This document shows, piece after piece, positions 26,577 to 30,283 of a stretch of 32,448 nucleotides of DNA. The notes beneath the pieces were generated by a model, which saw nothing but the letters and a program-made list of their open reading frames with translations, ran no database searches and was not told the origin of the DNA. Each line of letters opens with the position of its first letter. Position 1 is the first letter of the stretch. The stretch comes from an uncultured Lentisphaerota bacterium (GTDB lineage: Bacteria; Verrucomicrobiota; Kiritimatiellia; CAIQIC01). The translations under genes were made by a program, and so were the position numbers. The stretch covers positions 1-32,448 of the forward strand of contig CAISWQ010000117.1 in assembly GCA_903889245.1 (NCBI GenBank), written 5' to 3'.

Positions 26577-26807
26577 TCAGTTACAGCCGCAGCCGCCGCC
26601 GCCAACGCCGCGGCCGCCGGACGCGGCCTCGCGGGTGAAGTAGATGTGCTCGGAATAGAGGTCGCCCAGCGGGTCGCGGTCGGGCCGCATGGTGTAGTCG
26701 GCGAGCTTGCCGCGCTGCCACGGCTTGACGTTGGCGCAGCCGGCGCCGCCGAGCGTCAGCAGCGTCGCGACCAGCAGGAGCAAAACGAGGGCCTTCATGC
26801 GGTTCAT
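26577..26807 (-). CDS. DUF4266 small lipoprotein
   Basis: A 76-residue protein with a lipoprotein signal ending LTLGGAGC (Cys24). The DUF4266 core follows: VKPWQRGKLADYTMRPDRDPL, then EHIYFTREAASGG and the invariant Gly/Cys tail GGGGCGCN at the very C-terminus. Function is unknown. The ATGA overlap with the TlpA stop (26804-26807) shows translational coupling. The operon also carries ApbE and DUF3570, the usual partners of this family. The cysteine tail could be a metal or cofactor attachment site (inference). Confidence 0.88.
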   Translation of the reverse strand: MNRMKALVLLLLVATLLTLGGAGCANVKPWQRGKLADYTMRPDRDPLGDLYSEHIYFTREAASGGRGVGGGGCGCN

Positions 26808-27322
26808 TTCCCGGCGAGCACTTTCTCGATCTCTTCCGTGAGCTGCTTGATCGTCTCCGCGCCGCGGAAGCCGGTGTGCTGGAAGCGGATCACGCCCTTG
26901 GCATCCACCAGCACGCTGGTCGGCATGGACTCGACACCGGCGGCGGCGACGAGCTTCTGCTTGGCGTCGCGGACGACGGGGAAGGTGACGGGATGATCCT
27001 TGAGGAAGCTGGCCATCTCGTCGGCCTTCTCGTCCACGTTGATGGCGAGGATGACGAGGCCCTTGTCCTTGTAGGCCTGCTGGAGCTTGTCGAGTTCGGG
27101 GAACGACTTCTTGCACGGGCCGCACCACGAGGCCCAGAAGTCGAGCAGCACGACCTTGCCGGCGAGCGCGGGCAGGTTGCCTTCGAGGCCGAAGCCGTCG
27201 AGCTTCGGCAGGGCGTCGCCGCTCTTCCACGCCAGCAGCGGCAGCGCGCACAACGCGACCACCGCGACGGCGCTGAGACGGCGGATGCGTTCAAGCACTG
27301 ATGGGGATGTTTTGGATTTCAT
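26804..27322 (-). CDS. TlpA-like thioredoxin-fold protein
   Basis: A 172-residue protein. An N-terminal membrane/signal segment (about residues 16-33, LSAVAVVALCALPLLAW) places the domain in the periplasm. The active site is WASWCGPC with Cys67 and Cys70, followed by LVILAINVDEKADEMASFL and the cis-proline region ESMPTSVLVDAKG, as in TlpA/ResA thiol-disulfide reductases. It may keep the DUF4266 cysteines reduced (inference). I chose the start at 27322, which overlaps the ApbE gene end by 32 bp. A longer frame from 27397 would lie further inside ApbE and adds an unrelated Arg-rich piece. Confidence 0.9.
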   Translation of the reverse strand: MKSKTSPSVLERIRRLSAVAVVALCALPLLAWKSGDALPKLDGFGLEGNLPALAGKVVLLDFWASWCGPCKKSFPELDKLQQAYKDKGLVILAINVDEKADEMASFLKDHPVTFPVVRDAKQKLVAAAGVESMPTSVLVDAKGVIRFQHTGFRGAETIKQLTEEIEKVLAGK

Positions 27323-28265
27323 ATTTCTGGAATCTCCGGGATTGGAACAGGCCCTGGTCCGACCAGATACAGCCGGCCGCACCGGGCGTCTGCTCAAAAA
27401 GTTTTTCGCCGCCGGCGAGGCCGAGCAGGCAGGCCGCGGTCGTCAGGATGCCGGCCTCGGTGCAGGTGGGCGCGATGGCCCAGACCGCATGGACGCCGTT
27501 CACGGCGGGCCGGCCGGTGCGCGGGTCCACGAGGTGGCGGCCGCGGCGATAATCGCCGGAGCAGCAGAGCGCGGCGTTGGTCAGCGCGACGCCGCCCCAG
27601 CACGCGTCGGGCTGCTGGGGATGTTCCAGGCCGAGCCGCCAGTCGCCGCCTTCGGGCGGTCTGCCGCAGACGCGCAGGTCGCGGCCAAAGTCAATCAGCA
27701 GGTCGGTGATGCCGTGCCGCTGCGCGAGCGCGAAGACCTGGTCCACCGCGTACTCCTTGCCGATGCCGCCGAGGTCGAGCTGCATTCCGGCGCGCGGCAG
27801 GCGGGCCCGGCCGGGCGCGCGCTCCACCTTGGCCCAGCCGACGAGTTCGAGCGTGGCGGAAAGTTCCGCGTCGGTCGGCGCGCGGCCGGACGTGGCGCTC
27901 CACCAGCGCGCCGCCGCAGCGACCGTGGGATCGAAGATGCCGCCGGTCTTCCAGTGGAACCAATCGCAGAGCGCGAACAATTCCTGCGCTGCGGCCGGGA
28001 GCGTGTGCCAGTCGCCGTTACCCGCGGTCGCGTTCAGGCGGCCGACGAGGCTTTCCGGGATGAAGCGCGAGAACTGCGCCTCGAATTCCGCCAGCCACAG
28101 CAGCGCGGCGCGGCGGAAAGCCTCCGCGGCGGCGGCGTGCGGTGCGCGGCAGAGCAGCGCGTTCTGCGTGCCCAGCGCCGGGAAAGCCACGCGCACGTAG
28201 TCGCCGTGGCGTTCCGGCGCGGCGGCGCTCATGCGGGCGAGCAGCTCGTGGACGGTCAGAGCCAT
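27291..28265 (-). CDS. apbE: ApbE-family FAD:protein FMN transferase
   Basis: A 324-residue protein. Hallmarks are ALGTQNALLC near the start, FDPTVAAAARWW, the Mg/FAD site LDLGGIGKEYAVD, the conserved DPRTGRP and the TTAACLLG segment near the end. ApbE cleaves FAD and attaches FMN to Ser or Thr of target proteins outside the cytoplasm. No signal peptide or lipobox is evident at this start, which is unusual for an exported ApbE, so it may be cytoplasmic. It overlaps DUF3570 by 10 bp upstream and TlpA by 32 bp downstream. No canonical flavinylated FMN-bind target is present in the window. Confidence 0.9.
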   Translation of the reverse strand: MALTVHELLARMSAAAPERHGDYVRVAFPALGTQNALLCRAPHAAAAEAFRRAALLWLAEFEAQFSRFIPESLVGRLNATAGNGDWHTLPAAAQELFALCDWFHWKTGGIFDPTVAAAARWWSATSGRAPTDAELSATLELVGWAKVERAPGRARLPRAGMQLDLGGIGKEYAVDQVFALAQRHGITDLLIDFGRDLRVCGRPPEGGDWRLGLEHPQQPDACWGGVALTNAALCCSGDYRRGRHLVDPRTGRPAVNGVHAVWAIAPTCTEAGILTTAACLLGLAGGEKLFEQTPGAAGCIWSDQGLFQSRRFQKYEIQNIPISA

Positions 28266-29671
28266 AGCGTGACTCCCGCCATCACGATGGTCGCGCCGGG
28301 GTAGGCATCGGGTGCGGTGACGCCGTCACGTCCGCGCTGCTCGTAGCGCTCCACGTCCACGTCGAACGAAAGCGACTTGGTCGGCTTCCAGATCAGCTTG
28401 AGCCCGTAGCCCACCGCCGTCAGTTCCGAGAGGCGATAGTCGGCCGAATAGACCTCCGGCGCGCCGCTGAAGCGGACGGCGTAGAAATCCGCCGCGCCCT
28501 GCTGGTAATAGCGGAACATCGGCCGCAGGATCCATTGCGGAGTGAGCTTCTGATACCACGCCAAGCTGAACGTGTTGGCGGCGCTGCCGAACGAGTCGTG
28601 ATAGAAGCGGTAGCTCACTTCGGCGCCGCCTTCCATGCTGTCGAAGTAGCGGTTGAGGGCCACATAGGCGATCTGCTTGGTCCGCTCCTCCGGGCGCTTC
28701 TCCGGGATGAGCGTTCCGTTGAGCTCCACCACCTTGTAGGGATCGGTCAGGTACCCCTGCGCGCGGCCGAGCGTGAAGTTGACCGTCAGGAGCGTGTTGG
28801 GATCGAGGACTTGCGTCAGGCCGATCATGCCGTCCAGGGTGTTCTTCGCCGTCGCGTCGGGCTGATAGTAGCCCTGCACCATATCGTGGTTCAGCGACGC
28901 GCCCACCAGCAGCGTCGTGTTCTTCTGGTTGAAGTCTATCGCGTCGCGCAGGGCGAGGCCCTTGGAGTCATAGTCGGACTCCGTGCTGTAGGCGAGTTGG
29001 ATGCCGAACGTGTGCGAGGCCCACTGCTTGTTCAACTCAAGCACCAACCCGTACCGTTCGTCGCTGGAGTTGGCGGTCGGCACCTTGTTGTCGGTGCCCG
29101 CCGCCGGCGCGGCGGTTGTGGCGGAACTGGAGGAGGCGGTGGTCGTGGTGGCGCCGCCGCTGGAGGGTGCCGGCGTCGGGGCTGGCGCGGGTGTCGGCGC
29201 GGGCGTCGCGCCGGCCTTTGCCCACGGGCTCAAGCGCAGGGCCTTCATCCGCGCGACGTTGTTCAGCCGTTGCATCCGGCGGTCATCGTCGCGCTCATCA
29301 TCGTCATGGTCGTAATTCCCCGAAGGAGGCGGCGCCGTGTAGGAGCTGGCCCCGGCGGAAACCGTGCTGCCGCTCGCGGACTTGGCAGGCGATGCCGCCG
29401 GCGGCGCGCCTGTCGGCGTCGCGCCGGAGATGGAATTGTAGATGCCCTGAATCTTGATCGTCAGGGTGGGGTTGATTTCCTTCTCGAAGTTGACCGAGGG
29501 CGCGAAGACCTGCATCCGGTTGCCGTCTTCCTTATAGTAGAGCGTCTTGAAATCCAGCCGCTCCTCGCCGCCCGCCCTCCGGACCGGCAACAGCGGCAGC
29601 AGCGCCGCCAACGCCAGGGAATGCTTCCGCGAAATCTTCATCCAGTTACTATCGGCACGCCACTTCGTCAT
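28256..29671 (-). CDS. DUF3570 outer-membrane beta-barrel-like protein
   Basis: A 471-residue protein. A signal peptide (LALAALLPLLPVRRAGG) is followed by LDFKTLYYKEDGNRMQVFAPSV, the opening of DUF3570. Residues about 75-210 are a low-complexity insert: an Asp/Arg-rich patch (DHDDDERDDDRR), an Ala/Pro/Thr stretch and poly-Thr/Ser. The rest shows alternating amphipathic beta strands with aromatic girdles and ends in VTLWL, as expected of a barrel. It is first in the DUF3570-ApbE-TlpA-DUF4266 operon. The start is uncertain: 29671 has GGGG upstream and a promoter ending about 22 nt before, while 29641 (MKISRKH) gives a shorter signal peptide but no ribosome binding site. Confidence 0.85.
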   Translation of the reverse strand: MTKWRADSNWMKISRKHSLALAALLPLLPVRRAGGEERLDFKTLYYKEDGNRMQVFAPSVNFEKEINPTLTIKIQGIYNSISGATPTGAPPAASPAKSASGSTVSAGASSYTAPPPSGNYDHDDDERDDDRRMQRLNNVARMKALRLSPWAKAGATPAPTPAPAPTPAPSSGGATTTTASSSSATTAAPAAGTDNKVPTANSSDERYGLVLELNKQWASHTFGIQLAYSTESDYDSKGLALRDAIDFNQKNTTLLVGASLNHDMVQGYYQPDATAKNTLDGMIGLTQVLDPNTLLTVNFTLGRAQGYLTDPYKVVELNGTLIPEKRPEERTKQIAYVALNRYFDSMEGGAEVSYRFYHDSFGSAANTFSLAWYQKLTPQWILRPMFRYYQQGAADFYAVRFSGAPEVYSADYRLSELTAVGYGLKLIWKPTKSLSFDVDVERYEQRGRDGVTAPDAYPGATIVMAGVTLWL

Positions 29672-29947: not shown

Positions 29948-30283
29948 TCACAGCGTGCCGTGCAGGTTGCAGGCGGGTTTGCCGCCGAGGGTGGTGGGCA
30001 GGGTGTAGACGCCGCCGCCTTTGCAGACCGGGAGGTCCCGGAAGTAGGGGTTCTCGCCCATCAGGTCGGTCATGGCCGTGGGCAGGGCGTTGCTGTGGTC
30101 CAACGCAAATTGCTGCAGCGCGCCATCTATCACCCGCAGATTGTTCTGACAAAAGCCGGCTTGCGATTTGTGGCGCGCACTGATGAAGGAGGGAATCGCC
30201 AGGCCCGCCACCAGCGAAATGATCGCCACCACGATCATGATTTCCAGCAGGGTGAAGCCCCGCGCTGTGGATGAGTTGTACAT
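29948..30283 (-). CDS. Type IV pilin-like / pseudopilin protein, second copy
   Basis: A 111-residue protein, the same length as the pilin at 19131. It has the leader MYNSSTARG and then FTLLEIMIVVAIISLVAGLAIPSF with Glu at +5. The globular part is clearly paralogous (FCQNNLRVIDGALQQFALDHSNA, LPVCKGGGVYTLPTTLGGKPACNLHGTL). Its leader is less basic than that of the first copy. The start is 18 bp after the stop of the upstream TPR/deacetylase gene, so it is cotranscribed rather than under its own sigma-54 promoter. AAAGGAAAGG lies upstream of the ATG at a slightly long distance. Confidence 0.9.
   Translation of the reverse strand: MYNSSTARGFTLLEIMIVVAIISLVAGLAIPSFISARHKSQAGFCQNNLRVIDGALQQFALDHSNALPTAMTDLMGENPYFRDLPVCKGGGVYTLPTTLGGKPACNLHGTL

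Follow-up and report, generated by a model that had tools for sequence, protein, structure and literature searches.

A DUF3570-ApbE-TlpA-DUF4266 operon with a signal-less variant ApbE, and its possible role as a flavin-based outer-membrane redox device

Operons that combine DUF3570, ApbE, a thioredoxin-like protein and DUF4266 have been grouped under the name 'DsbD system' (Meheust et al. 2021; PMC8238504), with the thioredoxin assigned to PF13899, and 316 such clusters without an adjacent DsbD have been reported. In this account, the cognate ApbE of Chlorobium luteolum flavinylates DUF3570 at two [S/T]GA[S/T] motifs, and DUF4266 has a conserved C-terminal CXC. The operon considered here lies in a 32,448-nucleotide contig of an uncultured Lentisphaerota bacterium (CAISWQ010000117.1, assembly GCA_903889245.1), and this whole stretch is referred to as the window. 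The operon spans positions 26577-29671, with all four genes on the minus strand. It resembles the published clusters in its four families, in a DUF3570 that is the predicted flavin acceptor and in the CXC end of DUF4266. It differs from them in having one SGAT instead of two and a Redoxin-like thioredoxin whose PF13899 match stays below the cut-off, and from a 'DsbD system' in the strict sense in having no adjacent DsbD. Judged by its genes alone, the operon is an ordinary member of an already known kind, to which a previously unrecognised ApbE variant is added by the sequence comparisons: a DUF3570-linked subfamily without a signal peptide, in which the metal-ligand Asp is replaced by Gly and a nearby Gly by Glu. 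The available part of PMC8238504 makes no mention of a signal-less ApbE, an active-site change, barrel topology or immunoglobulin-like (Ig) partners in these clusters.

The Pfam match, the predicted model and structure comparison agree that the window protein has the ApbE fold. Its AlphaFold2 model (predicted local distance difference test score, pLDDT, 93.7) gives a VIA Z of 36.5 to T. pallidum Ftp and 34.5 to V. cholerae ApbE; across canonical ApbE/Ftp proteins (E. coli, V. cholerae, T. pallidum and Listeria FmnB) Z lies between 32 and 36.5, and the Ser and His residues align. Unlike these enzymes, the window ApbE has an incomplete Ser-His-Asp set: S236 and H244 are kept, but the Asp has become G272 and a neighbouring Gly has become Glu. 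These residues were matched by alignment together with a reading of the E. coli ApbE motif. G272 aligns with E. coli D280, which binds metal 1 through its side chain and backbone, and E171 occupies the position after that of E169, which binds metal 2 (PMC4767422). The same Asp belongs to a proposed Asp-Ser-His triad, whose three residues are called conserved in the active site (PMC12052999). The Glu/Gly pair is found in 107 of 107 readable ApbE rows from group-1 operons (109 rows, two unreadable, including copies fetched twice); Gly/Asp is the pair in four group-2 operon ApbEs and in the window genome's two further ApbEs. Among 39 control ApbEs, chosen among the matches listed, 37 combine Gly with an acid (Asp in 36, Glu in one), and the two Glu/Gly controls are a group-1 ApbE encoded outside its operon (G283) and a second ApbE 8 kb from a DUF3570 operon of the same genome. 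A Vibrio plasmid ApbE is likewise Glu/Gly and without a signal, and that of Hymenobacter is Gly/Asp.

The variant also differs from canonical ApbE/Ftp proteins in having no export signal. The window ApbE shows no N-terminal hydrophobic stretch, no in-frame hydrophobic start and no lipobox. A hydropathy of at least 1.9 is reached by none of 91 variant rows (two reach 1.6) versus 32 of 36 ordinary rows, when only rows that have a Met within the 60 residues preceding the core are counted; 19 variant and 8 ordinary rows without such a Met were set aside. By a cruder measure (at least 1.6), hydrophobic N-termini occur in 102 of 107 TlpA and 113 of 113 DUF4266 proteins and in 11 of 105 ApbEs, both kinds mixed. 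An export signal is not strictly defining for ApbE, since cytosolic ApbEs exist: that of Klebsiella pneumoniae has no signal peptide either, although it flavinylates a soluble fumarate reductase in the cytoplasm (PMC12052999), whereas the predicted target in the window is exported. From its sequence, the variant appears to be a cytosolic enzyme whose metal site is rearranged. In a tree of 146 ApbE rows, 98 of the 100 variant rows fall into one branch (support 100), together with L110 and L146. A single origin of the variant was considered and dropped, as the tree counts more than one change; the number of changes is unsure because L110 and L146, which count as canonical rows inside the clade, are gapped at the columns and the Vibrio and L174 rows form long branches. 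The second Glu/Gly ApbE, encoded on the strand opposite to DUF3570 and 8 kb away from it (L174:540-1643; L213:273-1376), lies far from the operon clade in sequence. At 27530-27550 the window ApbE lacks about eight residues of a hairpin that precedes the active-site His in its congeners, and on the Hymenobacter volaticus plasmid (L176:4437-5803) ApbE is divided between two frames and the tail of DUF4266 falls outside its frame, which suggests either decay or a sequencing error.

DUF3570 contains the predicted flavin acceptor. Of the 120 distinct DUF3570 rows that the fetched loci yield, 110 have the motif [D/N]x[I/V/L]xG[A/S][S/T]PxG, with Ser or Thr as the acceptor in all 110, though the search expression also permitted Ala. 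The residue three positions before it varies (S, A, T or V), and the strict [S/T]GA[S/T] form fits 65 of these sites. The ten misses comprise four fragments, five group-2 proteins (L081-L085) and one protein with ISGFTPTG (L146). A nearby TGAP in the window protein does not fit the motif, so this DUF3570 has one site, not two. In an AlphaFold2 model built from 48 sequences, the protein forms 16 strands (barrel pLDDT about 98) plus a disordered loop. The predicted barrel is closed and even-stranded, short and long connections alternate (188 residues in total after odd strands, 23 after even ones), and the sequence begins with a signal peptide; an outer-membrane 16-strand beta-barrel is supported by the model. 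Its structural neighbours are general outer-membrane barrels (VIA Z 21.2 for PelB, 18.2 for CymA, 17.8 for OmpG), and since Foldseek returned 396 matches at E up to 0.001 to many different barrels, no specific barrel family is claimed. SGAT stands at the end of modelled strand 3, on the long-loop side. With both ends periplasmic, as in known barrels of this type, the site would face outside, an assignment that applies the usual barrel rule to a predicted model. Sequence and model together support the flavin site well, and a flavin covalently bound to the DUF3570 barrel, predicted at T85, is very probable.

This result changes the view taken in the original prediction, which saw no usual flavinylation target in the operon and offered DUF4266 or DUF3570 for that role. 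The first statement is true only of FMN_bind, of which Pfam finds none in the operon, as DUF3570 is itself a published ApbE substrate (PMC8238504) and SGAT is present in the window copy. DUF3570 is retained as the target on these grounds, and DUF4266 was rejected because its sequence holds no [S/T]GA[S/T] motif. The further statement that no function is established for these families had been overtaken, since the same source already groups them, shows DUF3570 flavinylation and points to the CXC tail. An Asp/Arg-rich and poly-Thr insert had been singled out as an oddity of DUF3570. It is genuine in sequence, but lies inside a fast-changing loop: the Asp/Arg-rich and Thr/Ser-rich (TTTT/SSSS) stretches share the single loop between strands 3 and 4, whose length in relatives has a median of 19 (crude parse). 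Acidic runs (at least six acidic residues in ten) occur in 9 of 15 Kiritimatiellia-type DUF3570s and in 0 of 95 others, where the label 'Kiritimatiellia-type' rests on the titles of the nearest kin, uncultured assemblies labelled Verrucomicrobia, Lentisphaerae or Kiritimatiellales. Two irregular copies were also seen: at L052:6079-7490 (the same as L103) DUF3570 runs across several frames, perhaps as a broken or misassembled copy, and in L178 it is annotated as two genes.

The operon may encode a flavin-based outer-membrane redox device in which flavinylation precedes export and electrons pass to the cell surface, a reading with a probability of roughly 0.6. The cytosolic ApbE, with its relocated metal carboxylate, would transfer flavin mononucleotide (FMN) from flavin adenine dinucleotide to T85 while the DUF3570 precursor is still unfolded and not yet exported. 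DUF3570 would then insert as a 16-strand barrel, placing FMN at the extracellular rim or in the lumen just below. The DUF4266 lipoprotein would sit at the periplasmic side of the barrel, its glycine-rich tail reaching in and bringing the terminal Cys-x-Cys to the flavin, and TlpA, itself reduced by a DsbD-type membrane protein, would keep this Cys pair reduced. Electrons would run from DsbD through TlpA, the DUF4266 Cys-x-Cys and the FMN on DUF3570 to a surface acceptor, which in Opitutales-type relatives is probably a second flavin-bearing protein, with Ig domains. The flavin site, the barrel, the location of the site on the long-loop face, the missing ApbE signal peptide, the active-site change and the conserved tail are supported by sequence and model; the cytosolic flavinylation, the lipoprotein in the barrel, the electron direction, the acceptor and the steps after TlpA are inferred. 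The link to DsbD is suggested by the Vibrio plasmid, where TlpA, DUF4266, DUF3570, ApbE and DsbD are adjacent and DsbD directly follows ApbE. DsbD likewise comes directly after ApbE in published clusters (PMC8238504).

A working analogy for this device is the MtrCAB conduit. In this porin-cytochrome complex a barrel holds a redox partner inside, and carriers stand at the surface. The window operon has no haem and would use flavin and thiols instead; no sequence relation is claimed. Several points weigh against the proposed device. It needs a flavinylated chain to pass Sec, and the covalent FMN on DUF3570 is a prediction. The variant ApbE may be altered or inactive, because the lost Asp is both a triad residue and a metal ligand. 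In the window site, Asn replaces the Asp of the published motif (as it does in 15 of 110 relatives), and the site is single where two were published. DsbD is absent from the window operon: none occurs on the window contig, and the DsbD_TM matches of the genome lie on contigs C32 and C96. Finally, the Ig-domain second substrate was not found in the window's genome or class.

This candidate second substrate comes from the neighbourhood of the relatives. In 56 of 124 loci, some of which are duplicates or end early, DUF4266 is followed within 400 nt by the start of an Ig-type protein encoded on its own strand. Its N-terminal module covers about 98 positions, ends in [H/D/N]xx[A/S]GA[T/S] and has no match in Pfam or NCBIfam. 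Among 81 same-strand downstream open reading frames (ORFs) found by the first helix only, 77 end in [A/S/V/T][G/A]A[T/S] forms; the other four show three different endings (PAAG, VGAN, and TGSS in L157) and one false match (L097). On sequence grounds, the Ig-domain proteins of Opitutales-type relatives are probably a new class of ApbE substrate. An alternative, which is possible though less well favoured, is that [A/S/V]GA followed by Thr marks a signal-peptidase cleavage site: the motif is preceded by a hydrophobic stretch and agrees with the A-x-A rule for such sites. Against this, the middle Gly and the Thr/Ser after it belong to the best-conserved residues of the module, the motif uses the same letters as the DUF3570 site, and its variable letter shows covariation with DUF3570. 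This covariation is weak (partial Mantel r 0.16, p 0.0015; raw match 42 of 69) and is reversed in the closest identity bin of 0.6-0.93 (0.74 versus 0.88), and shared ancestry may remain in it. In two Verrucomicrobiaceae-type loci (L053:8828-13522, from genome G234, and L104:12303-17330), a CITCH segment near the start of the gene after DUF4266 stands where Opitutales-type loci have the flavin-like module. The segment is cytochrome-c-like and haem-like in sequence. L053, which is one of the 56 loci but has no N-terminal module, encodes a CITCH protein that has Ig and cadherin-like domains as well; the cytochrome matches of this protein fall below Pfam cut-offs.

The thiol side of the operon is strongly conserved. 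The window TlpA matches Redoxin and AhpC-TSA with 84.2 and 74.5 bits (cut-offs about 26) and Thioredoxin_8 well above the cut-off, while PF13899 gives 19.3 bits against a cut-off of 27; all 108 related copies keep CxxC. Translation more probably starts at the ATG at 27322 than at an earlier TTG at 27397. DUF4266 has a lipobox (...GGAGC) with about 50 residues after the lipid Cys, and, as had been noted before, it ends in a cysteine tail (...GVGGGGCGCN). CGC ends all 101 distinct DUF4266 copies, with a last residue of N in 96, Y in 4 and F in 1. In genome G371, a remnant operon (L283:2707-3266) retains a TlpA fragment and a DUF4266 with the shortened tail GGGGCN, and neither DUF3570 nor ApbE was found beside this DUF4266. 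The invariant tail fits redox and metal use equally, as seen from sequence, and it is what would be expected if it bound a metal and the barrel were a pore for metal uptake or export, with the flavin reducing metal en route. The acidic loop runs of Kiritimatiellia-type DUF3570s and 25 published clusters with a VIT1 iron transporter (PMC8238504) are in line with such a pore. It is nonetheless unlikely, given that no metal transporter is recognised beside the window operon in the ORF lists, TlpA suggests thiol redox, and the acidic runs are missing from all 95 other relatives.

Two other explanations concern the enzyme and are still less probable. The variant ApbE may no longer be an FMN transferase, being changed or dead, with DUF3570 flavinylated by another ApbE or not at all. 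The loss of an Asp that is one of three conserved active-site residues (PMC12052999) and a metal ligand in E. coli (PMC4767422) favours this, and the two other ApbEs of the genome could replace the variant. A dead enzyme would be expected to drift, yet the reciprocal swap is fixed in every readable row with the aligned Ser and His retained, the fold is kept, the gene has not left the operon and DUF3570 still has Ser or Thr as its acceptor. Equally improbable is an ordinary periplasmic reaction of the published DsbD type, with ApbE exported without a recognisable signal: most ApbEs do act in the periplasm (PMC12052999) and those of group-2 operons (L082-L085) and Hymenobacter have signal-like N-termini with ordinary active sites, but no in-frame hydrophobic start exists in the window and none is strong in 91 relatives, the Vibrio ApbE is also signal-less with the same swap, and cytosolic ApbEs are known (PMC12052999).

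The distribution of the genes follows that of DUF3570. Among 387 genomes of the phylum, with kinship uncorrected throughout, DUF3570 occurs in 41, DUF4266 in 41 and both in 40, G371 being the one genome with DUF4266 but no DUF3570. All four genes keep the window's order and strand in 55 of 80 named loci, in agreement with the original prediction that these families co-occur. The variant ApbE (E up to 1e-60) is present in 35 genomes, all among the 41 with DUF3570, and is separated from the next ApbE by a wide score gap (207 bits versus 139). The Ig module (E up to 3e-18; two further matches near 1e-3 were dropped) is found in 24, all among these 35, and the 11 variant-ApbE genomes without it are ten of the window's class, the window's own included, and G234. 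The genome of the window (its own assembly, 5.26 Mb) has one Pfam FMN_bind match (contig C16) and two further ApbEs (contigs C71 and C58). This FMN_bind protein lies on a different contig from all three ApbEs and was rejected as the target of the operon ApbE; given its location and the two further ApbEs, the refutation once considered, in which it would account for the operon enzyme, is not supported.

Coordinates and Pfam matches confirm the proposed four-gene operon with overlaps of 10 bp between DUF3570 and ApbE, 32 bp between ApbE and TlpA and 4 bp between TlpA and DUF4266 (Table 1); DUF3570, ApbE and DUF4266 domains each exceed their Pfam cut-offs within this one cluster. A prepilin-like gene, resembling a type II secretion pseudopilin, lies upstream (window 29948-30283), and many relatives likewise have prepilin-like genes upstream of the operon, for example L152:4754-6569 and L116:6321-9317. 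In 29 loci a response-regulator cluster is also found close by, and in 27 a histidine-kinase cluster. In Kiritimatiellia-type loci no conserved partner adjoining the operon was recognised.

Table 1. Operon genes and predicted sites in the window
Feature	Position	Strand	Basis or remark
DUF3570 gene	28256..29671	-	Pfam PF12094, 250.6 bits (cut-off 25), E 3e-74
DUF3570 start	29671 or, more likely, 29641	-	MKISRKHSLALAALL signal peptide
Predicted flavinylation site S82-G83-A84-T85, acceptor T85, in NSISGATPTG	29417..29428	-	motif as in PMC8238504
112-residue disordered loop between strands 3 and 4, just after the site	29078..29413	-	pLDDT mostly <50
ApbE gene	27291..28265, ATG at 28265	-	Pfam PF02424, 189.2 bits (cut-off 25.6), E 1.4e-55
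ApbE Glu171 (GKEYAVD); Gly in ordinary ApbEs	27753..27755	-	alignments
ApbE Gly272 (TEAGILTT); Asp metal ligand/triad residue in ordinary ApbEs	27450..27452	-	alignments, PMC4767422, PMC12052999
TlpA/ResA-like exported thioredoxin, WCGPC	26804..27322, ATG at 27322	-	PF08534/PF00578/PF13905
DUF4266 lipoprotein gene	26577..26807, ATG at 26807	-	PF14086, 80.8 bits (cut-off 27), E 1.4e-22
DUF4266 C-terminal CGCN tail	26580..26591	-	CGC[N/Y/F] in relatives

A wider reading would see in these operons a haem-free outer-membrane electron route, in which a cytosolic, rewired ApbE flavinylates the barrel, and in Opitutales-type relatives also the Ig proteins, before export, while the thiol-tailed lipoprotein feeds the flavins. 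Because two loci have a CITCH segment in place of the flavin-like module, flavin and haem would be interchangeable in such a route, which as a whole is doubtful. Were the variant ApbE active, there would be a second solution to the textbook active site, and proteins bound for export could receive their flavin while still in the cell. The search for flavinylation systems would then change, since filters based on signal peptides and on the strict [S/T]GA[S/T] motif would miss many of them. The Ig-domain module would extend the substrates of ApbE by a new class, and a flavin at the outer rim of the barrel would make cytochrome-free extracellular electron transfer directly testable.

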